A DNA stretch of 16,406 nt from an uncultured Erysipelotrichaceae bacterium (GTDB lineage Bacteria; Bacillota_I; Bacilli_A; Erysipelotrichales; Erysipelotrichaceae). Positions 3,301 through 16,406 of the stretch are shown one piece after another. The stretch is from NCBI GenBank assembly GCA_947575425.1, contig CANPNQ010000003.1, positions 1 to 16,406 of the forward strand. Reading direction: 5' to 3'. The position numbers were made by a program, and so were the translations under genes. The notes under the pieces are model-generated. The model saw nothing but the letters and a program-made list of their open reading frames with translations. It had not been told where the DNA came from and ran no database searches. Each line of letters begins with the position of its first letter. Position 1 is the stretch's first letter.

Positions 3301-4505
3301 TCATGCAATACGCTGCGATCCATCATCATTTTCTGTGGGATCATCATTTTTTGCTGACGGTGAAAAGGGTGCCGAGGGGTTCTCCTCCTTTAGAGAGATG
3401 ATCTCGGTTGTCGTGACATGTAAATGGCGCTGCTGCAAAATCCGGTTGATGATATGGGCAAATAAGGTATAGAAGAAAGCGGTTGTCGGGACTGCCAAAA
3501 GCATTCCGATGATGCCAAATTGAGCGCCAAAGACAAAGATCGACAATAATACCCATAATAACAGATAAACAGCACGGAGGTCCAAAAATCCTGTGACAAG
3601 ATCAGAATCGCACCGATGCTCATCGCAAACATGGAACCGAATACCGGCACCAATGAGCATACTGCGATCAAGGTGGAGATCAGTTCGGGATAGGGGAAGT
3701 GAAACAGATTCATTGTGATAAAGTATAAGATCCAAAGGATTCCTGCTTCTACCAGTTGTCCAGTAATAAAGCTGGAGAATATTTGATTGGCCTTACTGCC
3801 CCATGTAAATATCACTTCGGAACGCTGTCTGCCAAAAGCCGCAACGACTACTTTGCGGGTTTGACGGATAAAGCTCTCCTTACTGGAAAGCAGATAAAGG
3901 GAAAACATAAAACCGGTAAAAATAACCGCAAACTGAGCAGTGAAGGACATTGCATTATCCCAGATGCCACCGGCGCTGTGCGAAAGGAAATTTAAAGCAT
4001 GGGAGGATATATTCGCCCAATCCATGCTTCGCATATTCAATAGATCCTGAATCTGTGATATATCGGTCAAGCGATAATCGATATTCAGCGATATCAGTAC
4101 ATCATCGATATTATTGATCAATCCAACGAAAAAATCAGAGAGATTGTTTAGCAACTGCATGAGGCTTTCTCCAATGCGCGGTACAATGATGCTGAACATG
4201 AAAATCAGGATGCCGAATACGATGATCAGCGACAGGGCTATGGAGATGCCGCGGATCATACGGTAGAGAAAGGAATGCTCCTTGATGATGCGTTTTAATA
4301 GTTTTTCCACTCGTACCATGACGACATTGAGCACAAAGGCGAAACCAATGGCATACAGCATCGATTGAAACATGCCGATCAAAGAGTACAGCGTGGATGC
4401 AAATGAATCGAAGCGAAATAGGAATGCCGCCAGCAGCAGTGCATATGTAACAAGGATCAACCACGGTCGGATGGCTTTGAAATCCTCATGATTTGGATAT
4501 TTCAT
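3301..4505 (-). pseudogene. AI-2E family transporter, broken by internal deletion/frameshift
   Basis: The first frame runs from ATG 4505 (AAGGAG at 4520-4515, 9 bases upstream; an ATG at 4511 is too close to it) and gives about 314 residues typical of the AI-2E transporter/permease family (PF01594; TqsA, YdiK and relatives), with N-terminal membrane helices, an amphipathic middle and the segment ITGQLVEAGILWILY. After ...DFWTSVLFI (near 3564) the frame turns to junk. A second minus-strand frame, ending at 3301, carries the family's C-terminus: LLWVLLSIFVFGAQFGIIG, then MLLAVP and a hydrophilic tail. The conserved piece expected between them, roughly Q-x-x-E-G-N-x-x-x-P-x-x-x-G with flanking helix (about 25 residues), is in neither frame. 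So the change is a real deletion that shifts the frame, not only a base-calling error. Members export or import various solutes; the substrate here cannot be told. Most likely non-functional. Confidence 0.75.
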
Positions 4506-4558
4506 AATCATTTCTCCTTTTTCATCTCATCGATGTATGACATTTTATAAGCAGGAAT

Positions 4559-5234: not shown

Positions 5235-6278
5235 ATGGAATTGAATGATAAAATCAAATATTATCGTAAAAGCAGAGGGATGACACAGGAGGAATTGGCT
5301 GATCGCTTGCATGTGTCCCACGCTGCCATCAGTAAATGGGAACGCGGATTTGCATATCCTGACATCAAATTGTTGCCGATCATGGCACGGGTGTTCCATA
5401 CCGATTTGAACACATTGCTATCCTTTCATGATGTGCTGAATGAGAAGGAGATTGCGGCACTTGTCCAGCCGCTGACGCAAATTGAAGATGTGAAGAGGGC
5501 GTTTGACTATGCTCAGGATCAGTTATTTGCCTTTCCCGATTGTGAGAGGCTGCGCTTGGCATGTGCAGATGCATTGATGAGCAAGCTGTATGATGATAAG
5601 AGGAAAACCGTCAGGTATGCATACATGGAAAAGCAGATCTTGGATTGGTATGAAGTGGTGAGTGAAAGTAAGGAGGTTGCAGTTTCTGATGAAGGAAAGG
5701 AACGTTTGATCCGTCATTATCTGCGTAAGGAAGATTTTACTAGGGCAAGGGAGCTGTTGACGCAGATCAGCACAAACAAGGTGCAAAATAGCGATCAGGG
5801 TAAACTTCAGTTGTTTTTATCGCAAGGAGAGTATAAGAAGGCAGAAGTGCTGTGTGAGGAATTACTGTTTGAGTTAGTGAATCAAGTGATCCTTAAAATA
5901 CAGCAGCTGATGGAACTGCGGCGTAGACAGAATTGCTTGGAGACAGCAGATGGATTAAGTGAGGTAATTCGCCAACTTTGCGTTATGACAGGCGTATGGT
6001 CTTATCCGCACCTGCTTGTTTCTTTTGAAACAGCAATCGCAAGGCAGGATCGCTCTGTGGCGTTGGATCTGCTTGAACAAATGTTGAACTGCTTTGATGT
6101 GCCTGTTCAAGAGGATCGCATCCTGTTTCTTCATTTAAAGAAAATGCCATTTTCCGACGAGTTTAACCGCCAATGTAAAAGCGTATTGGTGCGTAGTATT
6201 CAAAGTGATGAACTGGCTTTTTTGAAGGAAGATCCACGCTATCCCGCATTATTACAGCAGATGCAGACACATTGCTGA
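5235..6278 (+). CDS. XRE-family transcriptional regulator with long helical C-terminal domain
   Basis: A 347-residue protein. Residues about 4-60 are a classic HTH_3/XRE DNA-binding domain: ELNDKIKYYRKSRGMTQEEL, then the recognition helix SHAAISKWERG and the closing helix that begins PDIKLLPIMARVF. The remaining 280 residues are almost all helical and leucine-rich with TPR-like spacing, including LREDF-like and YKKAEVLCEELL segments; such domains often sense a peptide or partner protein, as in Rgg/PlcR-like regulators, but sequence identity to those is not claimed. The start at ATG 5235 follows AAAGGAG with a 9-base gap. It is a single gene with its own promoter. Targets may include itself through the palindrome at 5133 or the neighbouring units, but nothing in the sequence proves this. 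Confidence 0.75.
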   Translation: MELNDKIKYYRKSRGMTQEELADRLHVSHAAISKWERGFAYPDIKLLPIMARVFHTDLNTLLSFHDVLNEKEIAALVQPLTQIEDVKRAFDYAQDQLFAFPDCERLRLACADALMSKLYDDKRKTVRYAYMEKQILDWYEVVSESKEVAVSDEGKERLIRHYLRKEDFTRARELLTQISTNKVQNSDQGKLQLFLSQGEYKKAEVLCEELLFELVNQVILKIQQLMELRRRQNCLETADGLSEVIRQLCVMTGVWSYPHLLVSFETAIARQDRSVALDLLEQMLNCFDVPVQEDRILFLHLKKMPFSDEFNRQCKSVLVRSIQSDELAFLKEDPRYPALLQQMQTHC

Positions 6279-6449
6279 AACAATTACAAGCGCAAGAGGA
6301 AAAGGATGTTCAGTAGGAAAGCGTGCATGTAAGGAGAAGATTCATAGGATCGATCTATATCGCAGGATTATAAAACCATAAGCATTTTCATATAAAAAGC
6401 AATCCTTGTAAAAGAAAGTTCCTTCTGAAGGGAAAAAAGATGTTAAAAG

Positions 6450-6474
6450 AAAAACTGTCACAAGGACAGTTTTT
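6450..6474. terminator. bidirectional terminator between XRE and bactofilin genes
   Basis: AAAAACTGTC (6450-6459), loop ACAAG, GACAGTTTTT (6465-6474): ten perfect pairs whose A/T ends give T runs on both strands. The bactofilin stop codon (6475-6473) lies inside the stem. On the minus strand more T follow (TTTTTCTTTT). It can stop both convergent transcripts. Confidence 0.8.
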
Positions 6475-7297
6475 AGTTTTCGTTAAAATATACTTCCTGA
6501 CGGATGATGATATTACCTTGGATGACCGCGCCTCGCTTTACCTGTATATCATTGGCGCTGACATCACCGACGATCGCACTGGTCGATAGGAATTTCACAC
6601 CCTCGGAAACCATCGCATTACCCTTGATGCGTCCACCGTTGAGCAACTCAAACGCCTCTACATTGCCATTGATTGTGGAACTTTCACTCACCTGCATATT
6701 ACCTCCGCAGCCGATGTCACCGACAACAATCGCATTATCCAAATAAGCATTGTTACAGCTGATGGTTCCTTCGACAATCCCATAGATGGATAAGTTGGCA
6801 TTGCACAGAATATCACCTTGTACATGCCCTTGTATGACTAGATCTCCGTCTGCTTCGATATTACCGTGGATAACGGTACTCTTGGAAATGGTTGTTGTGT
6901 CCTCACCACTTGATTTGTTTTGATTGGCTGTAAACTGAGAACGCTGATAACTCCTTTCCGCATAGGATTGCGTTTGCTCATAGGATTCATCTTCTTGATA
7001 GCTTTGGGTATTCTCATAAGGCTGATGATCCCTTTGGTCCTGTATTGCTTCATAACTCTGCGTATCCTGATAAGACGGCTCCTGTTCATATGCCTGATAG
7101 TTATCTTCCTTCAGCATTTCGTCAAAAGCATCGTTGCCATAGGAACTTTGTGCAGATTGTGCTTCCGCATTTACCTGTGGCTGAATGATCTCCTGCTCCT
7201 GTGCCTGAGTATTCGCTGCTGTTTGCTGCGGCTGTTTGGGAGTTTGATTTTGGTTTTTCTGAGCATACATTTGTTTTTGACGTTCATACCACTTCAT
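6473..7297 (-). CDS. bactofilin family cytoskeletal protein with Q/Y-rich N-terminal extension
   Basis: A 274-residue protein. Residues about 138-268 form a bactofilin (DUF583) domain: a right-handed beta-helix made of short repeats such as STVIHGNIEADGDLVIQGHV, then VEGTISC, VVGDIGC, INGNVEA, IKGNAMV and VIQGNII. Bactofilins polymerise without nucleotide into filaments or patches at the membrane and act in cell shape, division-site or envelope tasks. Residues 1-137 are low complexity and rich in Q, Y, E and S, with a recurring T-Q-S-Y motif (79-82, 97-100, 109-112). No membrane segment is present; MKWYERQKQM could be a short membrane-binding helix. The start is fixed by GAGGAGGAAA seven bases upstream. 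It is transcribed alone; no M23 peptidase gene, a frequent neighbour, is near. Confidence 0.85.
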   Translation of the reverse strand: MKWYERQKQMYAQKNQNQTPKQPQQTAANTQAQEQEIIQPQVNAEAQSAQSSYGNDAFDEMLKEDNYQAYEQEPSYQDTQSYEAIQDQRDHQPYENTQSYQEDESYEQTQSYAERSYQRSQFTANQNKSSGEDTTTISKSTVIHGNIEADGDLVIQGHVQGDILCNANLSIYGIVEGTISCNNAYLDNAIVVGDIGCGGNMQVSESSTINGNVEAFELLNGGRIKGNAMVSEGVKFLSTSAIVGDVSANDIQVKRGAVIQGNIIIRQEVYFNEN

Positions 7298-7330
7298 TTG
7301 TATTTCCTCCTCTTCATCACCATTTTAGAT

Positions 7331-7359
7331 ATTATATCATTAAATCATTGTAATTTACA
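7331..7359 (-). promoter_or_regulatory. promoter of the bactofilin gene
   Basis: Minus strand: a perfect TATAAT (7336-7331) with TG two bases upstream (TGATATAAT) and a poor -35, TGTAAA (7359-7354), at 17 bases. The start near 7325 leaves a leader of about 28 bases. Confidence 0.55.
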
Positions 7360-7460
7360 TCATTTCTTATGCTTTTTTCTGATAAATTTATGTTTTTTGT
7401 CTGCAATTCAGGCGTTCTCTGCTTTAAATTCAATGCTTTTCTTCCTTATGGTGCATATAT

Positions 7461-7490
7461 TTCCCATGCATAGACCTCATATGCTATAAT
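7461..7490 (+). promoter_or_regulatory. promoter upstream of the EamA gene
   Basis: TATAAT at 7485-7490 with TG at 7482-7483 (extended -10) and a partial -35, TTCCCA (7461-7466), at 18 bases. Transcription would begin near 7497, about 285 bases before the EamA start codon. Confidence 0.5.
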
Positions 7491-7781
7491 TTGCAGGCAC
7501 TGTTGACCGCTTTGCCGGTTCTTTTTGATCAGCGCAGCTATACCTGATATCGCTGCGTTTGCCTGATGTAATATATGGATGGCTTTCATGCTTGCCGCTT
7601 TGCTTGTTTCAAAAAATCATCAGCTACGAAAACACGATCGTGATCCTGAAGCATTTTGTTATGCCCTTTCTCTGATTGCCTGTTTTAGTTCCTTTATTTT
7701 CCTCTGTTTCTATGCTTCTGTAGGCAGCGGCTTGAAATTATGGGGGAGGATATGCTATCATACCAAGCAAAAGGAAGGGAT
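7491..7781 (+). other. long leader of the EamA gene, with hairpins and a coupled small frame
   Basis: Near the predicted start, GACCG-CTTTGC-CGGTT (about 7505-7520) is a short hairpin followed by TCTTTTT, like an attenuator. AGCGCAGC and GCTGCGTT, separated by 12 bases, form a second hairpin in about 7532-7559. From 7579 a 68-residue frame with one hydrophobic stretch runs to TGA 7783-7785, overlapping ATG 7782 of the EamA gene by ATGA. It lacks a ribosome binding site and resembles nothing I know. I do not recognise a known riboswitch class. Confidence 0.3.
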
Positions 7782-7784
7782 ATG

Positions 7785-8660
7785 ATGCATAAAACAACAG
7801 CAAATTTTATTTTGGTGCTGGTAACGATCATATGGGGCGGCGGCTTTATTGCGACAAGTACGGCGCTGAATACGTTTCCACCCTTTACCATCATGGCAAT
7901 TCGCTTTCTCGGTGCGGCGATTCTGCCATTTCTGATCGCATGGAGAAAGTGGCGCTCTCTTTCGATGGGAGAATTGATTCATGGAATCATGATCGGCGGT
8001 TTTCTGTTTTTGGCCTTCGGGTTTCAGACCTTCGGCTTACAGGTGACAACACCGGGGAAAAACGCATTTCTGACTGCGACTTATGTAGTATTTGTACCGT
8101 ATTTATTGTGGCTGTTTCGAAAACGGAGACTGAAGCGAAAAGAATGGGCGGCATCCTTTCTCTGTATTCTGGGAATTGCGCTGTTGACATTACAAGGGGA
8201 TTCTCTTTCCTTCACCATAGGAGATAGCCTTTCTTTTATCTGTGCTTTGTTTTTTGCGATTCATATCATTGCGCTGGAGCGTTATGGTGCGCACAGTGAT
8301 GTGTTTGTGATGACGGCGTTACAGATGGGAACAGCAGGTGTGATTTCAGCATTGTTTGCCTGTTTTACAGAGACGTGGCCTGCTCAGATTCCCACCACAG
8401 CGATCCTGTCGGTGGGGTATTCGATCCTGATCTCCACCATGCTTGCCTACTTGTTACAGACATGGGCGCAGAAATATACCGATGCGAACAGTGCCTCTAT
8501 GATTCTTTCAATGGAGGCATTATGGGCGAGCGTATTTTCCTTTTTGTTTTTACAGGAAACGATGAGTGTGGCGATGCTGTTTGGGGCAGTGTTGATCCTT
8601 GTATCTGTGATCTCCATGGGATATGATCCTCATCAAAAAAAGGCAAAGAGATCTTCCTGA
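7785..8660 (+). CDS. EamA/DMT family transporter
   Basis: A 291-residue integral membrane protein of the drug/metabolite transporter superfamily with two EamA repeats and about ten membrane helices. The first repeat opens with the family hallmark IIWGGGFIATSTAL (about 12-25) followed by FTIMAIRFLGAAILPF; the second begins near GDSLSFICALFFAIHIIALE and ends with the typical glutamate motif SMEALWASVFSFLFLQE. The tail is basic. Family members export amino acids, nucleosides, sugars or metabolites; the substrate here is unknown. The start is ATG 7785 or the adjacent ATG 7782; AAAGGAAGG at 7770-7778 serves either. An in-frame ATG at 7752 sits only two bases after GGGGGAGG and is less likely. No clear terminator follows; about 160 featureless bases separate it from the hydrogenase promoter. 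Confidence 0.85.
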   Translation: MHKTTANFILVLVTIIWGGGFIATSTALNTFPPFTIMAIRFLGAAILPFLIAWRKWRSLSMGELIHGIMIGGFLFLAFGFQTFGLQVTTPGKNAFLTATYVVFVPYLLWLFRKRRLKRKEWAASFLCILGIALLTLQGDSLSFTIGDSLSFICALFFAIHIIALERYGAHSDVFVMTALQMGTAGVISALFACFTETWPAQIPTTAILSVGYSILISTMLAYLLQTWAQKYTDANSASMILSMEALWASVFSFLFLQETMSVAMLFGAVLILVSVISMGYDPHQKKAKRSS

Positions 8661-8825
8661 TATTATCAATACGTCTTGAGTGATATGGTAAAGGCTGCGA
8701 TTGCAGGCATTCACTTGGATGTACCTGACAAGCATAGGGAAGCGGATTTTGGCATATCATACGTTATAGGAGATACGTGTACAAGGGAAAAGGAGAATTG
8801 TTAAAAATTTCTTATGAATTTGTGC

Positions 8826-8853
8826 TTTTCAAGTAGTGATTTTATGGTATAAT
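8826..8853 (+). promoter_or_regulatory. promoter of the hydrogenase gene
   Basis: TATAAT (8848-8853) with TG at 8845-8846 (extended -10) and TTTTCA (8826-8831) at 16 bases. RNA should start near 8860. Confidence 0.65.
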
Positions 8854-8857
8854 TGAT

Positions 8858-8889
8858 TTGTGAAAAAAAGTACAAGGTGATACTTGTAC
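8858..8889 (+). promoter_or_regulatory. Rex-like half-site and hairpin at the hydrogenase start point
   Basis: TTGTGAA-AAAA-AGTACAA (8858-8875) resembles the Rex redox-repressor site TTGTTAA-N4-TTAACAA: the left arm matches 6 of 7, the right arm only its ACAA end. Overlapping it, GTACAAG (8870-8876), GTGATA and CTTGTAC (8883-8889) form a perfect 7-base inverted repeat at the 5' end of the mRNA. Either could control the gene; Rex is a known regulator of fermentation and hydrogenase genes in Clostridia. Confidence 0.35.
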
Positions 8890-8922
8890 CCTGTGATAGG
8901 GATAAGGATTGGAGAGGAATTT

Positions 8923-10371
8923 ATGTCATTATTTGAGCATGAAGCACGACAATTTAAATTTGATGTGCTGCGCGAGGTCTCACATCGCTGTTTTGAGGGA
9001 AAACTGGATGAAACGATCATTGATGAACTTGCATATCAGTTGATTCCCGGCAAGCATGCGGATTTTCGCTGTTGCGTGTATAAAGAAAGAGAGATCATTC
9101 GTCAGCGTGCCAGAATGGCGATGGGTAAGCCGCCGGTGCCGATGGAGCATGACAATCCAAGGCAGATTGTCAGAGTGATTGAAGCGGCTTGCGATGGCTG
9201 TAGCATCCATAAAATATTAGTAACGGATAACTGCCGCAAATGCATGGCGAAGTCCTGCATGGCCGCATGTAAATTCGATGCAATGAAAATGGGGCCAGAC
9301 CATGCATATGTGGATTATGCCAAATGTAAGGAATGCGGGGCCTGTGTGAGTGCCTGTCCCTTCCATGCCATCGTGGAGACGATGCGTCCTTGCCGGGCCA
9401 GCTGTCCGGTCGATGCGATTAGTATGGATGAAAACGGTTTGGCTCAGATTGATGAAGAAAAGTGCATCAACTGCGGGGCCTGTCAGGCAAAATGCCCGTT
9501 TGGCGCGATTGAGGATATGTCGTGGATGACACAGGTGATTGATGAACTTCGCTCAGATACAAAGCTGTTTGCGATTTTTGCGCCTTCCATCCAAGGACAA
9601 TTTGATAATGCAAGCTTGCCGCAAATCAAACAAGCGATTCGGGAGCTTGGCTTTGAGGAAGCATATGAAGCGGCAATCGGGGCTGATGCGGTGGCATGGT
9701 ATGAGCGTGAGGATGCCATAAAGCATAAGGCGGAGGGAAAGAAGATCACAACCTCTTGTTGCCCCGCTTTTGTCAATTTGGCAAAACAGCACTTTCCCAG
9801 CGTATATGAAAACAACGTATCGCATATGGTATCTCCGATGGTGGCGATCGGACGCTATTTGAAGCATCACTATCCGGATCATAAACTGGTGTTTGTGGGA
9901 CCATGTGTTGCGAAAAAACAGGAGGCACAGGATTCCTGCATCGACTATTGCCTGACCTTTGAGGAGCTTGCGGCGATGATGGTCAGCTGTCAAATTTCAC
10001 CGGAAAATGTAATTCCAAATGAGGATGAGACCGCCTCTGTTTACGGTCGTAACTTTGCGATCGGCGGCGGCGTATCTAAGGCGATGCTTCAAGCACTGAA
10101 GGAAAACAGTGAGGATGTCGTAACCGCCGAATATGCCGATGGTTCTGCCGCATGCAAGAAGGCATTGCTGCTGATGAAGGTAGGGCGTTTCCCAAGTGAT
10201 GTATTGGAAGGCATGGCATGTGTTGGCGGCTGTGTTTGCGGTCCGGCATCCATTGAAAATGCACCCAAGATCAAGGCTCGCATGAACAAGGAAAACGCGG
10301 AGCATACGGAAAAAACGATCGCCTCTACATTGGAAGTATTTGATTTCACCGGAATTGATCTGCATAAATAA
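8923..10371 (+). CDS. monomeric [FeFe] hydrogenase, group B (B1/B3 type)
   Basis: A 482-residue cytoplasmic iron-sulfur protein. An N-terminal helical part (1-89) precedes a cysteine-rich ferredoxin-like region with several clusters: C90/C93, C104/C107/C112/C116, CxxCGACVSACP (135-146), C157/C161 and CxxCGACQAKCP (181-192). The H-cluster domain follows: L1 TTSCCPAF (276-283, cluster ligand C280 and proton-relay C279), L2 GPCVAKKQE (326-334, C328, K331, E334), L3 MACVGGC (431-437, C433, C437). L2 lacks the usual Met and L3 lacks GGGQP of group A enzymes, both marks of group B. The enzyme should convert protons and electrons to H2 or the reverse; the partner is probably ferredoxin. No HydE/F/G maturases are in the window. 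The start at ATG 8923 follows GGAGAGGA; a TTG at 8884 lies inside the leader hairpin and is rejected. Confidence 0.9.
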   Translation: MSLFEHEARQFKFDVLREVSHRCFEGKLDETIIDELAYQLIPGKHADFRCCVYKEREIIRQRARMAMGKPPVPMEHDNPRQIVRVIEAACDGCSIHKILVTDNCRKCMAKSCMAACKFDAMKMGPDHAYVDYAKCKECGACVSACPFHAIVETMRPCRASCPVDAISMDENGLAQIDEEKCINCGACQAKCPFGAIEDMSWMTQVIDELRSDTKLFAIFAPSIQGQFDNASLPQIKQAIRELGFEEAYEAAIGADAVAWYEREDAIKHKAEGKKITTSCCPAFVNLAKQHFPSVYENNVSHMVSPMVAIGRYLKHHYPDHKLVFVGPCVAKKQEAQDSCIDYCLTFEELAAMMVSCQISPENVIPNEDETASVYGRNFAIGGGVSKAMLQALKENSEDVVTAEYADGSAACKKALLLMKVGRFPSDVLEGMACVGGCVCGPASIENAPKIKARMNKENAEHTEKTIASTLEVFDFTGIDLHK

Positions 10372-10406
10372 AAAGAGGCTTAAATCGAGGACGATATTCT
10401 ATGATT

Positions 10407-10470
10407 AAAAAAGTCTGTGTGCTGTCTTAATCTCCATGAGAGTCCTATCTGAAGCGATACAGGCTTTTTT
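10407..10470. terminator. long-stem terminator after the hydrogenase gene
   Basis: AAAAAAGTCTGTGT (10407-10420) pairs with ATACAGGCTTTTTT (10457-10470) over 14 positions with two G-U pairs. The 36-base apical part contains smaller pairings (CTC/GAG around 10432-10441). Both ends carry A/T runs, so it can act in both directions, also for the convergent membrane-protein gene. Confidence 0.65.
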
Positions 10471-10553
10471 ATATGCTTTTGTTTTTGGGATGCGGCTTTC
10501 AATCATAGGAGCGAGTGATCCATGAGTAGCAACAAGCATGCATCATTTGCAGT

Positions 10554-10922
10554 TTATTCATTCAACCATTGTCGGTTGTTGGCGAAGGTACTTTTCTTTA
10601 AATGCTTATGACGTTTGACGAAAAAACGGTAGCGCATCCAGCACACAGCTTGAATCAAAATTGCCAAAAGCGCAGCCATTCCCATACATAGGGTAGGTAA
10701 AAAATAAGGGGAGGATTGTCCTTGATCATCCGCCATCACTCCTAGGTAAAATAATTGTCCCATAATGGCAAGAAAGGCGAAAACAGTAAGCAGGAATGGA
10801 AAGATGACAGTTTTCTTATTTCTTATGGCGGCATAACTAAAATAGATCACTATAAGAAGCAGCACGCACACTGCCATATAATTGGCAGGATAATAACTGA
10901 TCAGTTCTGTCTGAGTATGCAT
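10554..10922 (-). CDS. small membrane protein, unknown function
   Basis: A 122-residue protein with three predicted membrane helices: about NYMAVCVLLLIVIYFSYAAI, then TVIFPFLLTVFAFLAIMGQL, then a third beginning YFLPTLCMGMAALLAIL, and a strongly basic C-terminus (RYRFFVKRHKHLKK). The positive-inside rule puts the tail in the cytoplasm. I recognise no family. ATG 10922 is chosen because AGAGGTG lies six bases upstream; the GTG at 10931 is part of that ribosome binding site. It faces the gene at 11161 with a divergent promoter region, and ends before the long-stem terminator it shares with the hydrogenase gene. Confidence 0.6.
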   Translation of the reverse strand: MHTQTELISYYPANYMAVCVLLLIVIYFSYAAIRNKKTVIFPFLLTVFAFLAIMGQLFYLGVMADDQGQSSPYFLPTLCMGMAALLAILIQAVCWMRYRFFVKRHKHLKKSTFANNRQWLNE

Positions 10923-10997
10923 ATATTTCACCTCTTGATGTTCTGATTTGCTTATTATTTCAAATCAATGGCTGTGAGCTTAGAATCTGATATCGAA

Positions 10998-11012
10998 TGG
11001 CGAGGATCGCCA
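10998..11012 (-). promoter_or_regulatory. palindrome TGGCGA-N3-TCGCCA, candidate operator
   Basis: Two perfect 6-base arms around GGA, lying about 12-27 bases after the predicted start point of the minus-strand membrane-protein transcript. It could be a repressor site or a small hairpin in the leader. No known regulator is assigned. Confidence 0.3.
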
Positions 11013-11030
11013 AAAGGAAAGAATAATTTG

Positions 11031-11059
11031 ATTATAGTCCTTTTTATGAGGAAAGGCAA
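11031..11059 (-). promoter_or_regulatory. promoter of the small membrane-protein gene
   Basis: Minus strand: TTGCCT (11059-11054), a 17-base spacer and a perfect TATAAT (11036-11031). The leader to ATG 10922 is about 100 bases. Confidence 0.55.
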
Positions 11060-11108
11060 CTGTTTCCCAACTGAGAGGGAACAGAAAGAGGTCCAATGCT
11101 TTTTCCGC

Positions 11109-11137
11109 TTGTATATCAATCCATTTCCTGATACAAT
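11109..11137 (+). promoter_or_regulatory. promoter of the acidic 165-residue protein gene
   Basis: TTGTAT (11109-11114), a 17-base spacer and TACAAT (11132-11137) with TG at 11129-11130. The leader is about 18 bases. Confidence 0.55.
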
Positions 11138-11160
11138 GATACAAAAAAGGAGGGGTATGT

Positions 11161-11658
11161 ATGTTGTGGAAACAGGGGGATCATGCGCAACTGTCGCTGA
11201 GCGATGGAATCGCTGTTGATTATACACAAGGGCGCTTTGTGCTTGTGGTTAAGGACGATGTGTGGACGGAATATGAATGCAAGGCACTTCATCAAAATCC
11301 CTTGCATCTCTATTTTATCTATGAGCGCATCTGTGCGTTGTTTTTATTAGAAAATGTGGCTTCCATTGATACCAGTGATGCGATTTTCGATATTCACAGT
11401 TGCGATGAAGCAAACCGGCTGTTAGAGGACGAAATATACGATATGGAGATTTATTTCATTGATGGACATGATATGGTTTGTGGCGCACGTAGGATCAGTT
11501 TTGATAAGCAAAGCAGTGAAATAATCCGTAAGCATTTACAGAAACAGATGGATACCCCTTATGATGATGCGGGATTTGATCGCGCATTAGCCAAAATACA
11601 AGGAATCTATGAGCCATTTGAAATGGAAAAGATGGCACTTTTTAAGGCAACATTCTAG
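11161..11658 (+). CDS. hypothetical protein, acidic, soluble
   Basis: A 165-residue protein with no signal peptide, membrane segment or cysteine cluster. The N-terminal half alternates short strands (DGIAVDYTQGRFVLVVKDDVW) with a hydrophobic core around residues 50-65 (HLYFIYERICALFLLENVAS); the C-terminal half is mainly helical and charged. Composition is acidic. It does not match a family I can name. AAGGAGG at 11147-11153, seven bases before ATG 11161, is a near-consensus ribosome binding site and, with an extended -10 promoter and its own terminator, makes a real gene likely. Another ATG at 11157 is in a different frame and too close to the binding site. Confidence 0.65.
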   Translation: MLWKQGDHAQLSLSDGIAVDYTQGRFVLVVKDDVWTEYECKALHQNPLHLYFIYERICALFLLENVASIDTSDAIFDIHSCDEANRLLEDEIYDMEIYFIDGHDMVCGARRISFDKQSSEIIRKHLQKQMDTPYDDAGFDRALAKIQGIYEPFEMEKMALFKATF

Positions 11659-11694
11659 CGCGTATGTCAATCATGGCAACAAAGAAATAACGAT

Positions 11695-11725
11695 ATACCT
11701 CTCAAACAGTCAGAGGTATTTTTTT
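11695..11725 (+). terminator. rho-independent terminator
   Basis: ATACCTCT (11695-11702), a 9-base loop and AGAGGTAT (11712-11719), then a run of T to 11725. It ends the 11161 transcript. Confidence 0.8.
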
Positions 11726-11797
11726 AACTTAAAAAAATAAATAATTACTAAAATATATCGCATTGAGCCTTGTGATTGCTTTCTTTTATAAATTTAT

Positions 11798-11813
11798 AAG
11801 TAATCGTTTACAA
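11798..11813 (+). promoter_or_regulatory. cre-like box (CcpA catabolite repression) upstream of glpK
   Basis: AAGTAATCGTTTACAA fits the cre consensus WTGNAANCGNWNNCWW at every fixed position but one (A for T at position 2). It overlaps a possible upstream promoter: TTGTGA (11770-11775) with TATAAG (11795-11800) at a wide 19-base spacing, or a -10 TACAAT at 11809. Glycerol genes are classic CcpA targets in Bacillota, so the context fits. Confidence 0.5.
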
Positions 11814-11826
11814 TCACTCGATATGG

Positions 11827-11847
11827 TTTCTGATTAAACATCAGAAA
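11827..11847 (+). promoter_or_regulatory. hairpin in the region upstream of glpK
   Basis: TTTCTGAT (11827-11834), loop TAAAC, ATCAGAAA (11840-11847): eight perfect pairs. It is followed by an A run and then ATTTATC, so it is not a plain plus-strand terminator; it may be an operator or the 5' structure of an RNA started near the cre-like box. Confidence 0.35.
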
Positions 11848-11910
11848 AAATTTATCATAGTAGGCTTTATGAGACAGAGTAAATCGCAATGGTTTATCCT
11901 GCTTTGAGGA

Positions 11911-11950
11911 GAGGCGACAGCGGATGATAAGCGTCTGTCGCTTCCTTTCT
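11911..11950 (+). terminator. stable hairpin upstream of the glpK promoter, possible leader terminator
   Basis: GAGGCGACAG (11911-11920) pairs with CTGTCGCTTC (11935-11944), with a further CG/CG inside. The 3' side continues CTTTCTCTATTTG, a weak T tract. It could end a short RNA begun near 11815-11825, or act as a regulated leader terminator like those controlled by GlpP in B. subtilis glp genes; the second idea is inference. Confidence 0.4.
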
Positions 11951-11954
11951 CTAT

Positions 11955-11983
11955 TTGATTATTGTCAGCCACCGTGTTATACT
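11955..11983 (+). promoter_or_regulatory. main promoter of glpK
   Basis: TTGATT (11955-11960), a 17-base spacer and TATACT (11978-11983). Start near 11990; leader about 73 bases. Confidence 0.6.
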
Positions 11984-12025
11984 TACCACAGATATGTAAC
12001 CGCATACATGATGGGAAAGAATTTG

Positions 12026-12047
12026 GATCGTATATCCAATTACGATC
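12026..12047 (+). promoter_or_regulatory. leader hairpin just before the glpK ribosome binding site
   Basis: GATCGTA (12026-12032), loop TATCCAAT, TACGATC (12041-12047): seven perfect pairs ending three bases before GGAGG (12050-12054). It could tune ribosome access or protect the 5' end. Confidence 0.4.
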
Positions 12048-12062
12048 ATGGAGGACAAACAC

Positions 12063-13562
12063 ATGGAAACATATATTATGGCGATTGATCAGGGAACCAC
12101 TAGCACCAGAGCGATCTTATTTGATCATGAATCCAATGTAGTGGGGATAGCGCAGAAGGAATTGGATAACTACTACCCGCAACCGGGATGGGTGGAACAA
12201 AATGCCAATGACATCTGGGCGCACACGGTAGGTGTCATGTTTGAAGTCATGGCAAAATGCGGGGTTAAAGATTCCCAGATCGCTGCCATCGGCATCACCA
12301 ATCAGCGTGAGACAACGATCGTATGGGATAAGGAAAGCGGCCGACCGATCCATTTCGCAATCGTTTGGCAGTCAAGGCAATCCAAGTCCTATATCGAGGA
12401 ACTCAAGGCGCAGGGCAAAGAGGCATGGATCAGGGAGAAAACCGGATTATTGCTGGACCCGTATTTCAGTGCATCCAAGATTCGCTTTATTCTGGATCAT
12501 GTGAAAGGCGCTCAGAAAAAAGCAGAGGAAGGCAAACTGTTGTTTGGGACGGTAGACAGCTGGCTGGTATGGAAACTCACGAAGGGAAAGTGTCATTTCT
12601 GCGATGTTTCCAATGCCTCAAGAACGATGCTGATGAATCTGAAAACGATGGATTATGATGAGGAACTGTTAGCGCTGTGGAATATCCCTCGCTGTATGCT
12701 TCCTGAGATCAAAGACAGCAGCGAGATTTATGGGAGCACGGTCGGCTTGTTCGATCACGAAATACCGATTGCCTCTATGATCGGTGACCAGCAGTCCGCA
12801 TTATTTGGACAGACATGCTTTTCAAGCGGTGATGTGAAAAACACATATGGTACCGGGTGTTTCCTGTTGATGAATACAGGAGAAGTGCCCATCTTTTCCA
12901 ATCATGGCTTGCTCACCTGTGTGGGATGGCGCAGAAAACAGGAGAAATGCTATGTGTTGGAAGGCAGTGTGTTTGTCGCAGGAGCGGCTGTTCAATGGCT
13001 GCGGGATGGCTTGAAAATCATTACAACCAGTGAAGAAAGCGGCAAGCGTGCTGCGATGCTTTCCTCCAGCGAGGGTGTGTATGTAGTGCCTTCCTTTACC
13101 GGCTTGGGAGCACCGTATTGGAATGCGGATGCACGAGGGGCAATGTTCAATCTGACACGAGGAACCACGCAGGAGCATATCATCCGCGCTACCGTGGAAA
13201 GCCTTGCTTATCAGACATACGATGTGATTGATGCGATGCGCAAAGACAGTCATTTGGCAATTTCTTCCTTGCGGGTGGATGGGGGAGCCTCGCGCAATGA
13301 TTTCCTCTTGCAGTTTCAGGCGGATCTTTTACAATGTGAGGTCAAACGCTCTTTCATCAGCGAAACAACAGCACTGGGCGCCGCCTATTTGGCAGGTCTG
13401 GCTATTGGCTATTGGCACGACAAGGAGGAAATCAAGACCTTGCACCGCGATGGCAGATGCTTTCTTGCTTCTGCGGATGATGAAAAGAGAAAAATGCGCT
13501 TGGCAGGCTGGCATCGTGCCATTCAAGGCGTCTGTACTTTTTCGCAAAAGGAGGACATATAA
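12063..13562 (+). CDS. glpK: glycerol kinase
   Basis: A 499-residue enzyme of the FGGY carbohydrate kinase family, normal GlpK length. It phosphorylates glycerol with ATP to sn-glycerol 3-phosphate in the cytoplasm. Visible motifs: phosphate-1 DQGTTSTR (9-16), glycerol contacts R82, E83, W102, Y134 (LDPYFSASK), D242 (GDQQ) and F267, the NASRTML segment (184-190), and the FGGY signature region around GLGAPYW (347-353) and DGGASRND (406-413). The usual WQDRRT reads WQSRQS. The phosphorylatable histidine of many Gram-positive GlpKs (H232 of Enterococcus, 14 residues before the GDQQ aspartate) is G228 here, so control by HPr phosphorylation is doubtful. Start ATG 12063 has GGAGG eight bases upstream; ATG 12048 overlaps that site. 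No glpF or glpD lies beside it. A cre-like box upstream suggests catabolite repression. Confidence 0.95.
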   Translation: METYIMAIDQGTTSTRAILFDHESNVVGIAQKELDNYYPQPGWVEQNANDIWAHTVGVMFEVMAKCGVKDSQIAAIGITNQRETTIVWDKESGRPIHFAIVWQSRQSKSYIEELKAQGKEAWIREKTGLLLDPYFSASKIRFILDHVKGAQKKAEEGKLLFGTVDSWLVWKLTKGKCHFCDVSNASRTMLMNLKTMDYDEELLALWNIPRCMLPEIKDSSEIYGSTVGLFDHEIPIASMIGDQQSALFGQTCFSSGDVKNTYGTGCFLLMNTGEVPIFSNHGLLTCVGWRRKQEKCYVLEGSVFVAGAAVQWLRDGLKIITTSEESGKRAAMLSSSEGVYVVPSFTGLGAPYWNADARGAMFNLTRGTTQEHIIRATVESLAYQTYDVIDAMRKDSHLAISSLRVDGGASRNDFLLQFQADLLQCEVKRSFISETTALGAAYLAGLAIGYWHDKEEIKTLHRDGRCFLASADDEKRKMRLAGWHRAIQGVCTFSQKEDI

Positions 13563-13578
13563 TTTCTACCCATCTATG

Positions 13579-13626
13579 CGCATTCGTGACAGGTGAGAAA
13601 TTGAGGATAAATTTCAAGCGAATGTG
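13579..13626 (+). terminator. composite hairpin after glpK, probable terminator
   Basis: CGCATTCG (13579-13586) pairs with CGAATGTG (13619-13626) and encloses GAAATT (13597-13602)/AATTTC (13610-13615). TTAAATTTT follows. The T tract is interrupted, so termination strength is uncertain. Confidence 0.4.
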
Positions 13627-13636
13627 TTAAATTTTA

Positions 13637-13666
13637 TAGACAAGGGGGAAGGGAATTTGTTATAAT
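13637..13666 (+). promoter_or_regulatory. promoter of the riboswitch-controlled transporter operon
   Basis: TAGACA (13637-13642, 5 of 6 to consensus), an 18-base spacer and a perfect TATAAT (13661-13666) with TG at 13658-13659. RNA begins near 13673, about a dozen bases before the aptamer. Confidence 0.75.
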
Positions 13667-13685
13667 AAAAAAGCATTGATACATG

Positions 13686-13750
13686 ATCATATATGACGCA
13701 GATAGGGTGCGTTGTCTCTACCCGGCAACCGTAAATTGTCGGACTATGAT
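13686..13750 (+). promoter_or_regulatory. purine riboswitch aptamer, guanine type
   Basis: All parts of the xpt-type fold are present. P1: ATCATA (13686-13691)/TATGAT (13745-13750). J1/2 begins with U13692 (U22 of xpt). P2: GACGCA (13695-13700)/TGCGTT (13708-13713), six pairs with one G-U. L2 GATAGGG (13701-13707) and L3 CCGTAAA (13729-13735) are the kissing loops; L3 is identical to B. subtilis xpt. J2/3: GTCTCTACC (13714-13722), keeping U47 and U51. P3: CGGCAA (13723-13728)/TTGTCG (13736-13741). J3/1: GAC (13742-13744). The ligand-pairing base, C74 of xpt, is C13744, which specifies guanine or hypoxanthine/xanthine-like purines rather than adenine. U51 being kept argues against the 2'-deoxyguanosine class. 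It controls the transporter genes that follow through the terminators at 13776-13839. Confidence 0.9.
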
Positions 13751-13775
13751 GATATCGGAAAAGAACTTTTTAAAC

Positions 13776-13806
13776 GCTTCTATCCTACATAGAAGCCTGC
13801 TTTTTT
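13776..13806 (+). terminator. riboswitch expression platform, terminator 1
   Basis: GCTTCTAT (13776-13783), loop CCTAC, ATAGAAGC (13789-13796), then CTGC and six T (13801-13806). Eight perfect pairs. Its 3' arm can also pair with the 5' arm of terminator 2. Confidence 0.7.
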
Positions 13807-13809
13807 GTT

Positions 13810-13839
13810 CGACTTCTATATCATATAGAGGTCGTTTTT
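13810..13839 (+). terminator. riboswitch expression platform, terminator 2
   Basis: CGACTTCTATA (13810-13820), loop TCA, TATAGAGGTCG (13824-13834): eleven pairs with one G-U, followed by five T (13835-13839). It ends about seven bases before the ribosome binding site of the first transporter gene. The aptamer's P1 3' strand (TGATAT, 13750-13755) is complementary to ATATCA (13818-13823) in this hairpin, which offers a ligand-free antiterminator. Confidence 0.75.
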
Positions 13840-13863
13840 GCGTTGAGGAGGAAGTGCGAGAAA

Positions 13864-14697
13864 ATGAAAAAACATGTGGCATATCTATTTCTGCTTCCCG
13901 GCACGGTGCTGTTATTATTCTTTCTGATGGTACCCCTGTTTGCGGTGTTATGGCCTACGGTATTTCCGGACGGTTTTTCACTGAGTGCCTACACGGCGTT
14001 TTTTCTGGATGATTATTACATGGAAATATTGATTCGGACCCTGCGCATTGCGCTGATATCAGCGCTGGTATGTATCGTTCTCGGTGTACCTACTTCTTAT
14101 TTCATCTCCCGCTGCCCAACCAAATGGAAGGGAATCTTGATCGCCGTATCCATCTTTCCGATGCTGACAAATTCGGTGGTGCGCAGCTTTGCGTGGATCA
14201 ATATTTTAGGCAGAAACGGTGTAATCAACACATTGCTCTTAAATCTTGGCGTGATTGATGAACCCATCGGGATGCTATATACGGAGTTTTCCATTCTCAT
14301 CGGTACTATTTATCTGTTTCTGCCGATCATGATCATGACGTTAGTCGGTGTGATGGATCAGATCGATAACGACATGATGGAAGCGGCAGAGAGCCTTGGC
14401 GCAAGCAAGCTCAAGGCGTTTATCAAGGTGGTTTTGCCAATGAGTGTACCCGGTATTATCACCGGTGCGGTACTCGTATTTACCGGTGCTTTGACCGCTT
14501 ATACCACACCACAACTCTTGGGTGGGAATAAGTCGCTTGTGCTGGCGACGCTCGTCTATCAAAAGGCAGTAACCTTAAATGACTGGAGCAGTGCCGGAGT
14601 CATTGCGGCAGTGATGATCGTATTGACGCTCATTGTGATGAAGGTGTTGAATCTGATTGCGGCACGCTTGGATAAGCGGGGTGAAGTAAATGCGTAG
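13864..14697 (+). CDS. ABC transporter permease, PotB-like, predicted purine-related import
   Basis: A 277-residue inner-membrane permease with about six membrane helices (first at 5-30) and the cytoplasmic EAA loop E173-AAESLG-179 followed by a conserved late proline (LPMSVPGI), where the ATPase docks. Overall it resembles PotB of spermidine/putrescine importers (MetI-like fold). It is the first gene after the guanine riboswitch and its two terminators, so low purine should switch it on; a polyamine substrate is therefore doubtful. GGAGG (13847-13851) lies 12 bases before ATG 13864, a long spacing; a TTG at 13843 in frame is less likely because it would precede the binding site. The gene overlaps the next one by eight bases, indicating translational coupling. 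Confidence 0.85.
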   Translation: MKKHVAYLFLLPGTVLLLFFLMVPLFAVLWPTVFPDGFSLSAYTAFFLDDYYMEILIRTLRIALISALVCIVLGVPTSYFISRCPTKWKGILIAVSIFPMLTNSVVRSFAWINILGRNGVINTLLLNLGVIDEPIGMLYTEFSILIGTIYLFLPIMIMTLVGVMDQIDNDMMEAAESLGASKLKAFIKVVLPMSVPGIITGAVLVFTGALTAYTTPQLLGGNKSLVLATLVYQKAVTLNDWSSAGVIAAVMIVLTLIVMKVLNLIAARLDKRGEVNA

Positions 14698-15472
14698 ATA
14701 TAAGGGATTGACGGTATTCTCCGTCCTCGTGTTTCTGTTTCTGTTTCTACCGTTAGTGATCATTGCGGTGACGGCATTCGGTGATCAGCCGACCATTCAA
14801 TTTCCGATCAAGGGTGTTTCCTTTGCATGGTTTGGTAAAGCGATTGCCTCTGCCTCCTTCCGTAAGGCATTCTTATTGAGTATACAGATCGCATTGCTTG
14901 CGACCTTATTGGCATTGCTGGTCGGGATTCCGATCGCCTATACGCTGTCGCGGCACAGTGTGAAAGGGAAAAAGCTGATTAAGAGCTTCTTTCTCTCTCC
15001 TACCATCATTCCTGGCATCGTGGTCGGCTATGCGCTATTTCAGTTTTTGGTGATAAAGCTGCGCTTTCCCGTGTATCCGGGATTGTTGCTCGGTCATTTC
15101 CTCGTGGTGCTGCCTTATATCATACGTGTGGTCGGCGGCTCGCTGGAGCAGTTTGATTTCTCCATTGAGGAGGTGGCTTGGAGCCTTGGCTGTAATAAAT
15201 GGAAGGCATTCTTTCAGATTGTGCTGCCCAATATATCCAGCGGCATCATTTCCAGCTTTCTGTTGGCATTCATCAATTCCTTTAACAACATTCCGGTAAG
15301 CATGTTTTTAAGCGGTCCCGGTATCACGACGCTGCCGGCAACGCTGATGAGTTATGTCGAATATAACTTTGATCCCACCGTTTCGGCGGTATCGGTATTG
15401 CTGATGCTGGCAACGATACTCATCATGTTTGTGGTGGAGAAAACGCTGGGCATCTCCGCACTGGCAAAATAG
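14690..15472 (+). CDS. ABC transporter permease, PotC-like, predicted purine-related import
   Basis: A 260-residue permease with six membrane helices (first at 7-30) and the EAA loop as E160-EVAWSLG-167 plus VLPNISSGI. It resembles PotC and forms the heterodimeric channel with the PotB-like product. The PotC-type segment FNNIPVSMFLSGPGITTLP (about 198-216) is present. The start, ATG 14690, lies inside the end of the preceding gene; GGGGTGA just upstream is the ribosome binding site. The next gene begins 11 bases after its stop codon. Confidence 0.85.
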   Translation: MRRYKGLTVFSVLVFLFLFLPLVIIAVTAFGDQPTIQFPIKGVSFAWFGKAIASASFRKAFLLSIQIALLATLLALLVGIPIAYTLSRHSVKGKKLIKSFFLSPTIIPGIVVGYALFQFLVIKLRFPVYPGLLLGHFLVVLPYIIRVVGGSLEQFDFSIEEVAWSLGCNKWKAFFQIVLPNISSGIISSFLLAFINSFNNIPVSMFLSGPGITTLPATLMSYVEYNFDPTVSAVSVLLMLATILIMFVVEKTLGISALAK

Positions 15473-15483
15473 GAGGAATGGAT

Positions 15484-16406
15484 ATGTCATTTGTCGATTT
15501 GAAAAACATATGCGTTAGCTATGATGGAAAAACGAATATTTTAGAAGGCTTGAATCTCTCGATTGAGGAAGGGGAGCTCGTCTCTTTGTTGGGTCCCTCC
15601 GGCTGTGGGAAAACAACGACACTGCGGGTGGTGGCAGGTTATATCGATCCCAAGGGAGGCGATCTGTTTGTCGATGGAGATAATATCACCCAGGTAGCGG
15701 TACATAAGCGAAACTTTGGGATCGTCTTTCAAAGCTATGCGCTGTTTCCCCATCTTAGCGTAAAGGATAATGTTGCCTTCGGCTTGAAAATGCGCAAAAT
15801 GGATCAGGCCTCGATCAATCAAAAGGTGGATGAGATGCTGGAAATCTGTGGGTTGAGCGAATTTAAGGATCGCTTGCCCAAACAGATGTCAGGCGGTCAG
15901 CGTCAGCGTGTGGCTTTGGCAAGAGCGCTTGTCATTGAACCAAAGCTATTACTGCTGGATGAGCCGCTGTCCAATTTGGATGCGAAACTGCGCATTCAGA
16001 TGCGGGTAGAGATCAAACGTTTACAGAAGCAGCTGGGAATTACAACGATTTTTGTCACGCACGATCAGGAGGAATGCTTCTCGATCTCGGATCGAGTCGC
16101 GGTCATGAATCAGGGCGTGATCGAACAATACGATACGCCGGAACACATCTACACCAATCCGAAAACCGAATTCGTAGCCCGCTTCATCGGCTTTGAAAAC
16201 TTTATTGATGCTAAGAAAACAGGATCGCATACTTATGAGGCCAATGGACACAGCTTCCATGTAGAGGAGGATAAGGATGGGGACAGCGCTAAGCTGACCA
16301 TTCGCCCCGATGATATCCGCATCGTAAAGGAAGCGGAGGAAAACAGTGTCGAGGGAATGGTAGAGGTACGCACTTTCCTTGGTAAAAGCTATCAATATGA
16401 AATGAA
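15484..16406 (+). CDS. ABC transporter ATPase, PotA-like (3' end outside the window)
   Basis: 307 residues are visible of a protein that should be about 340-370 long. Walker A GPSGCGKTT (37-45), Q-loop Q83, signature MSGGQRQR (135-142), Walker B LLLLDEP (155-161), D-loop SNLD (163-166) and H193 are all intact, and a TOBE-type C-terminal domain begins near residue 230 (ENFIDA, then LTIRPDDIRIV). This is the PotA/MalK/CysA class of import ATPases. AGGAGG (15471-15476), which overlaps the stop codon of the permease gene, lies seven bases before ATG 15484; ATG 15478 is too close to it. A substrate-binding protein gene (PotD-like) is expected next. Regulation is by the upstream guanine riboswitch. 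The true substrate is inferred, not shown. Confidence 0.9.
   Translation, partial: MSFVDLKNICVSYDGKTNILEGLNLSIEEGELVSLLGPSGCGKTTTLRVVAGYIDPKGGDLFVDGDNITQVAVHKRNFGIVFQSYALFPHLSVKDNVAFGLKMRKMDQASINQKVDEMLEICGLSEFKDRLPKQMSGGQRQRVALARALVIEPKLLLLDEPLSNLDAKLRIQMRVEIKRLQKQLGITTIFVTHDQEECFSISDRVAVMNQGVIEQYDTPEHIYTNPKTEFVARFIGFENFIDAKKTGSHTYEANGHSFHVEEDKDGDSAKLTIRPDDIRIVKEAEENSVEGMVEVRTFLGKSYQYEM

Follow-up and report, generated by a model that had tools for sequence, protein, structure and literature searches.

The stretch analysed here, hereafter the window, is a 16,406-base contig from an uncultured Erysipelotrichaceae bacterium, and it ends with a purine riboswitch aptamer followed by two permease genes and the beginning of an ATPase gene. 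These three genes open a six-gene operon, permease-permease-ATPase-lipoprotein-ade-mtad, whose last three genes are located on another contig of the same genome, C80. With a probability of roughly 70%, this operon encodes an ATP-binding cassette (ABC) importer that takes up adenine or adenosine, along with deaminating enzymes, under a guanine-family aptamer that would switch expression off with guanine. Substrate and switching are inferred from sequence, and the imported compound may be adenine, adenosine or another adenine derivative.

The initial annotation had proposed that the importer takes up a purine rather than a polyamine, and this proposal gains support from the loss of most polyamine-contact residues of PotD and from the neighbouring genes, one of the adenine deaminase family and one resembling 5'-methylthioadenosine/S-adenosylhomocysteine (MTA/SAH) deaminases. 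Because the deaminase genes adjoin the importer, "a purine" can be narrowed to an adenine-type purine.

The aptamer

The Rfam model RF00167 (Purine) matches positions 13667-13766 of the forward strand over its full length, with 71.6 bits against a gathering cut-off of 37 and an E-value of 2.9e-11, and no other Rfam model reaches gathering level anywhere in the window's 16,406 bases. Aligned to RF00167, the J3-1 segment reads GACUA, which places C at position 74, as in the guanine type, and the ligand-contact positions U22, U51 and C74, named as guanine contacts in the available text of PMC9295807, are all kept. The complete guanine-type aptamer described in the initial annotation is thus borne out. 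The J2-3 segment, GUCUCUACC, differs from the usual GUUUCUACC at position 48 alone, with U51 retained. The same change recurs in locus L051 and in the second purine riboswitch of the window's genome, which precedes purE-like and purL-like open reading frames (assigned by eye, not by a model search).

By its sequence, the element is a guanine-class purine riboswitch that would respond to guanine. An adenine riboswitch is rejected because C74, within GACUA, is present in 28/28 of the aptamers printed, 27 of them linked to the operon and one linked to purE. The Xanthine-II type is likewise rejected, as the window aptamer keeps U51 and has J2-3 and J3-1 without insertion; the comparison with the 2'-deoxyguanosine class covered U51 and C74 only.

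The genes of the operon

The first gene (13864..14697, forward strand, as are all three) encodes a PotB-like permease with a PF00528 domain, for which the nearest curated model, NF007044, gives 182.6 bits (cut-off 348). Its start is ATG 13864, placed after GAGGAGG; the upstream TTG 13843 falls at the ribosome-binding region. The second gene (14690..15472) encodes a PotC-like permease, also with PF00528 (NF007047, 122 bits; cut-off 326), and the third (15478..16406, beginning at ATG 15478 or 15484) encodes a PotA-like ATPase with PF00005 and TOBE_2 domains. The ATPase is nearest to the PhnT2 and PotA-type models, the latter at 355.8 bits in a gene shortened by the contig end (cut-off 482). The description of these genes as PotB/PotC-like permeases and a PotA-like ATPase therefore holds at the level of nearest models, none of the three proteins reaching the curated cut-off of any of these models, PhnT2 included.

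The window is the whole of contig C3 in a genome that is 66.5% complete, and the binding protein and the enzymes are not visible in it because the contig stops inside the ATPase gene. The continuation is found on C80, whose first 34 codons and stop match the end of the ATPase gene of L003, a locus from another Erysipelotrichaceae bacterium. On C80 this end is followed by the gene of a 350-residue lipoprotein with the PotD fold, the binding protein (C80:124-1176), an adenine-deaminase-family gene, ade (C80:1192-2877), and an MTA/SAH-deaminase-like gene, mtad (C80:2868-4187). L003, whose first permease is 93% identical to that of the window, carries the whole run from aptamer to mtad on one contig: the aptamer at 5797-5898, the permeases at 5998-6831 and 6824-7606, the ATPase at 7618-8646, the lipoprotein at 8663-9715, the adenine deaminase at 9728-11413 and the MTA/SAH deaminase-like gene at 11404-12723.

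Conservation of the aptamer before the operon

Among 272 genomes of the family searched with the lipoprotein, 21, the window's included, contain a relative at E <= 1e-60; among the more complete family genomes the count is 13/152. A relative was also found in 10 of 392 genomes drawn from the phylum, five of them outside the family. The binding protein was thereby found in 26 genomes (21 of the family and five more), and 24 loci were fetched, which exclude the window's own genome and G559, whose contig is L006 and carries the aptamer.

RF00167 matches at gathering level before the first permease in 21/24 fetched loci. Two others, L045 and L050, are cut inside the permeases by contig ends, so that their upstream DNA is lost, and L052 has a match of 35.9 bits, below gathering, at the expected place. 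The aptamer consequently precedes the operon in 22/22 loci that keep upstream DNA, 21 above gathering and one at 35.9 bits. Measured by distance, 2.6-3.2 kb separate the aptamer from the binding-protein gene, which lies downstream of it on the same strand, in 21/22 genomes; the 22nd is the window's own, in which the contig break hides the link and the window shows it. This count covers 22 of the 26 genomes, with G397, G556, G559 and G560 excluded. Placement by chance is rejected, about 0.05 of the 21 cases being expected, with the qualification that the genomes carrying aptamer and operon are related and hence do not count as separate trials. Three families (f1, f2, f12) are represented among them.

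The aptamer is very unlikely to be a functionless remnant, or to act on something else, with the operon regulated independently of guanine. Such a view could draw on the weak aptamers of L053 and L054, which barely reach gathering at 37.5 bits, and of G539 (35.9 bits, below gathering), as well as on leaders without a clear expression platform, but the constancy of C74 in all aptamers printed and the place kept before the operon across three families argue against it.

Several loci show further peculiarities. Two RF00167 aptamers stand in tandem before the operon in L058 (2051-2275), L059 (9105-9328), L060 (8897-9120) and L061 (9346-9568); the upstream copy scores 57-59 bits and has GUUUCUAGCC in place of GUUUCUACC in J2-3, and both copies have C74; these tandems are possibly two-aptamer guanine switches. 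In L054 (3051-4144), the gene of the second permease is split, with about 320 bases lying between the codons of residues 113 and 116, which is not seen in its close relative L053. In L058 (4947-7644), unlike in L060 and L061, the lipoprotein match contains one in-frame TGA and the ade match falls into two overlapping pieces. Matches to rli23, described as a Listeria RNA, are present at L058 8761-8860 and L061 2755-2854, in genomes of the window's own family.

Deaminases and the imported compound

Directly after the binding-protein gene, ade is found in 21 of the 24 fetched loci and mtad in 20; 17 loci have the two together, and none of the 24 lacks both. Further 3' of mtad, the genes vary between loci (open reading frames only). 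The adenine-deaminase-family proteins score 379.4 bits (C80) and 389.9 bits (L003) with TIGR01178, and the L003 protein also matches PF13382, the adenine deaminase C-terminal domain, at 169.4 bits. The C80 protein keeps HMHIESSM, DPHE and TDDV, which we take to be the metal-binding motifs of adenine deaminase, in alignment with "Adenine deaminase 2" (PDB 3nqb). The mtad product is near proteins and models of the MTA/SAH-deaminase and 5'-deoxyadenosine-deaminase types, none of which it matches above cut-off.

Deamination of adenine yields hypoxanthine, and deamination of adenosine-type nucleosides yields inosine-type products; both feed inosine monophosphate (IMP) and hence guanosine monophosphate (GMP). 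A guanine-OFF switch before a module for the uptake and deamination of adenine compounds makes sense, since these compounds, once deaminated, feed IMP and GMP.

The importer and the deaminases are also associated where the aptamer is missing. In the class of L009, assigned to the Clostridia type because L009 is named a Eubacteriaceae bacterium, a lipoprotein relative occurs in 4/391 genomes, that of L009 included, and the same six-gene order is found in 4/4 of these loci. The genome of L009 has no RF00167 match anywhere, and the other three have some elsewhere; in one of the Clostridia-type genomes, G977, the contig and strand that carry the binding-protein gene also have an aptamer, 12.4 kb upstream of this gene; this aptamer does not adjoin the operon and was left out of the count.

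A search of plasmids gave 13 records at E <= 1e-40, of which 11 were read (H9 and H11, from A. vitis, were left out), and in 7/11 of these the importer's gene run contains an adenine-deaminase-domain protein or a nucleoside hydrolase. A protein with the adenine deaminase C-terminal domain is present in the runs of Lactiplantibacillus, two A. vitis records, Neorhizobium petrolearium, Martelella and Deinococcus; in Lactiplantibacillus and Deinococcus the deaminase-domain protein comes directly after the importer and is followed by a nucleoside hydrolase. The Qingshengfaniella plasmid combines an mtad-like amidohydrolase with a nucleoside hydrolase. Neither a deaminase-domain protein nor a nucleoside hydrolase is found in the runs of the Rhizobium sp. 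CC-CFT758 and Neorhizobium sp. NCHU2750 plasmids, nor in a 5.5-kb Weissella plasmid, in which nothing is annotated after the lipoprotein gene. The R. rhizoryzae record (L127, H14) has no annotation and was searched by tblastn only; a deaminase-like gene of 29% identity lies there on the opposite strand and was not counted. More distant relatives of the first permease, L010 and L011, have no aptamer that was found.

Two other purine substrates have to be weighed against these neighbourhoods. The importer could take up a different adenine compound (5'-methylthioadenosine, 5'-deoxyadenosine, S-adenosylhomocysteine or a modified adenine) that the deaminases trim. The sequence similarities of the last gene product and the three loci with mtad and no ade fit this, whereas the presence of ade in 21/24 loci, the action of known ade relatives on the free base and the pairing of the importer with a nucleoside hydrolase in three plasmid relatives do not, and this alternative is unlikely. 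Import of guanine, hypoxanthine or xanthine, with the deaminases as merely co-regulated purine genes, is more doubtful still: guanine riboswitches of C. difficile control xanthine/uracil-type permeases, according to the available text of PMC11477304, but the deaminases stay with the importer in the four Clostridia-type loci and in plasmid loci that have no guanine aptamer.

The binding protein compared with PotD

Homology had been expected to suggest spermidine or putrescine as the substrate, and some relatives are indeed so named in databases and papers. The binding protein was compared with PotD at its spermidine contacts, which were taken from the accessible portion of PMC11414716, in 18 binding proteins (14 of the 24 loci together with C80, L009, L016 and L017). 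At PotD positions E171, W255, D257 and Y293, the operon proteins have T in 18/18, N in 17/18, N in 17/18 and E in 16/18, respectively, and at W229 they have G in 16/18. The separate PotD-like proteins of the same genomes have D, W, D and Y at E171, W255, D257 and Y293 in 26/26. A separate protein that matches PotD better is present in 22/22 genomes tested, out of the 26; with the PotD equivalog model the operon protein scores 40-70 bits and the separate PotD-like protein 117-227 bits, the cut-off of 582 being reached by neither. In the window's genome the separate match (G000:C116:2265-3062) sits in a 618-residue open frame whose N-terminal part is permease-like by eye, as if it were a PotC-PotD fusion.

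That the operon encodes a polyamine importer which came under a guanine riboswitch by chance is highly improbable, and this candidate is rejected on the pocket comparison and on the separate PotD-like proteins. It has on its side the nearest curated permease models, PotB and PotC, the PotD fold of the binding protein, the names of some relatives and the acidic residue at the E36 slot, but the polyamine residues are kept in the separate PotDs and mostly lost from the operon protein, and 0/26 of the separate PotD loci, some of which are near contig ends, have an aptamer within 10 kb upstream. Following the operon past the contig end, on C80 and in relatives, has led, as far as sequence allows, to a binding protein without most of the polyamine contacts of PotD; a retained acidic polyamine pocket would have spoken for spermidine.

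The fold itself was not taken as evidence for a substrate because binders of different ligands (polyamines, opines, iron and sugars) match the PotD fold in the PDB with similar Z. The closest structure to the binding protein is PDB 4EDP, which has no annotated function, and the best 50 rows of each of two structure searches contain no entry described as purine-binding, a result that is uninformative either way. The domain matches of the L003 binding protein are to SBP_bac_8, SBP_bac_6, SBP_bac_1 and SBP_bac_11, with no Bmp family among them.

The leader as a candidate switch

Directly 5' of the window aptamer lies the promoter-like site TAGACA-N18-TATAAT (13637..13666, forward strand), with 11/12 consensus bases, and 0/200 mononucleotide shuffles score as well; in the region 13400-14200, promoter-like sites number two, not above the 1.5 expected. 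An exact TATAAT borders the aptamer on its 5' side in 16/22 leaders, the window's included, and in 7/22 leaders at most one of 200 shuffles gives a promoter-like site as good. Downstream of the aptamer, two terminator-like hairpins with U-runs (13776..13796 and 13810..13834, both on the forward strand) appear in the hairpin scan and in the predicted minimum-energy structure of the leader, and the region 13400-14200 contains four terminator-like hairpins vs 0.7 expected. Candidates for the promoter and terminators that had been ascribed to the aptamer are therefore present. Between aptamer and first gene, a terminator that satisfies the set criteria is found in 14/22 leaders, the window's among them.

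Pairing of the P1 3' strand with the downstream leader is beaten by only 0-4 of 200 shuffles in 9/22 leaders, in which it would form an antiterminator, and 9-19 of 200 shuffles are as good in five further leaders, the window's included. In part, then, the leaders agree with a guanine-OFF switch. L062-L065 may instead act on translation, as suggested by the lack of both a terminator and P1/leader pairing there.

When guanine is scarce, the P1 helix would be unstable, and its free 3' strand would pair with the downstream leader and block the terminator, so that the operon would be transcribed. The lipoprotein would capture the adenine compound, the permeases and the ATPase would import it, and deamination would give hypoxanthine or inosine, which salvage would convert into IMP and then GMP. 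With guanine plentiful, guanine would bind the aptamer, the terminators would form and the operon would be off. Such a strand exchange has been proposed, in the available text of PMC9756952, for the B. subtilis yxjA riboswitch, which precedes a nucleoside transporter.

Evidence that weighs against the assignment

Several observations speak against an adenine or adenosine importer under guanine-OFF control. On the side of the switch, 8/22 leaders (L046, L047, L049, L055 and L062-L065) are without a terminator of the set criteria, 8/22 have no P1/leader complementarity (at least 29/200 shuffles are as good), and that of the window is itself weak, with 19/200 shuffles as good. A guanine switch, moreover, need not match the imported substrate. 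The aptamer is absent from all four Clostridia-type loci and from the seven plasmid loci scanned for it (L015, L016, L017, L126, L128, L129 and L130), and it is for this reason not needed for the module. Five genomes of the same genus have no binding protein, and these have no RF00167 match either.

On the side of the genes, neither the C80 nor the L003 ade reaches the TIGR01178 equivalog cut-off of 472.5 bits, so that the model does not certify the substrate of the enzyme. Of the fetched loci, 3/24 lack ade (L050, L055 and L063, with mtad only) and 4/24 lack mtad (L058-L061, with ade only). The next gene on C80, 286 bases after mtad, is not a purine gene: it encodes a transaminase of the argD type, with a score of 442 bits that exceeds the cut-off. 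In the binding protein, the acidic residue (D/E) that aligns with E36, after a 3-residue insertion, is present in 16/18, and F or W occupies the W34 position in 18/18; W34 itself is W in only 19/26 separate PotD-like proteins. Given the acidic residue at E36 and the aromatic one at W34, part of the polyamine pocket may persist.

Relation to known systems

Compared with PotABCD of E. coli (PDB 8y5h, 8y5i), the operon shows 18% identity, and the polyamine residues are mostly replaced. Unlike PotABCD, it is coupled to deaminases and a guanine-type aptamer, and a separate PotD-like protein co-occurs with it. BmpA/Nup-type systems are purine nucleoside ABC importers in Bacillota; these share purine import by an ABC system with the proposed function, whereas the L003 binding protein belongs to SBP_bac families. 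The PbuX/PbuG/AgzA-type and yxjA permeases are secondary transporters. They too stand behind a switch of the RF00167 family, which in the cases described is OFF with guanine, according to the accessible parts of PMC11477304 and PMC9756952, and the operon differs from them in encoding an ABC importer alongside deaminases. Xanthine-II and other variant guanine riboswitches are likewise purine riboswitches, located before purine-degradation genes (available text of PMC9295807); Xanthine-II has position 51 changed and insertions in J2-3 and J3-1, and the window aptamer keeps the three contact positions as in guanine-I.

The structure 4EDP is an ABC binding protein of Clostridium perfringens. The four Clostridia-type loci that were read, the C. 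perfringens locus not being among them, lack the guanine aptamer. In this species, adeC (CPE1268, adenine deaminase) and potD (CPE1269, "spermidine/putrescine-binding protein") have consecutive tags and are adjacent in Table 1 of PMC6958937. Both are read, from the portion of that paper available, as belonging to the genes that are higher in liquid, since abrB, which the text assigns to that group, comes after them in the list.

The riboswitch class, the importer fold and the enzyme families are known; their combination and the substrate are not, as far as found. Among the literature matches listed, none describes a Pot-type importer preceded by a guanine or purine riboswitch, and an earlier listing in regulon tables or databases is possible; in one survey, a group of RNA-controlled genes is headed "Purine & precursor transporters" (Sun 2013, PMC3766115, in the text available).

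Other genes of the window

On the reverse strand, at 3301-4511, an AI-2E-family transporter gene is seemingly split over two reading frames, a 373-residue open reading frame with PF01594 and an overlapping one that has a transporter-like end by eye. On the forward strand, positions 8923-10371 encode an iron-only hydrogenase-like protein with ferredoxin domains (PF02906).

Significance

Extended beyond the window, the adenine/adenosine assignment leads to a wider proposal, which is favoured with some reserve: a branch of PotD-fold importers, whose members range from Bacilli and Clostridia to Alphaproteobacteria and Deinococcus and frequently carry a spermidine/putrescine label, would be the missing high-affinity adenine/adenosine importer. 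The guanine riboswitch would make one adenine-to-guanine module of it in Erysipelotrichaceae and in relatives that an inferred label calls Turicibacter-like, and 4EDP would be its orphan adenine-type receptor.

The proposal gives a testable function to transporters that are often annotated as polyamine pumps, one of which has a close counterpart among solved structures, itself lacking an assigned function. If true, the PotD-fold ABC importers would gain a purine-specific branch, and metabolic models that read such operons as polyamine uptake would be wrong on both polyamine and purine exchange. In these bacteria, the guanine switch would then govern the conversion of adenine compounds into guanine precursors, and not only synthesis or simple uptake.

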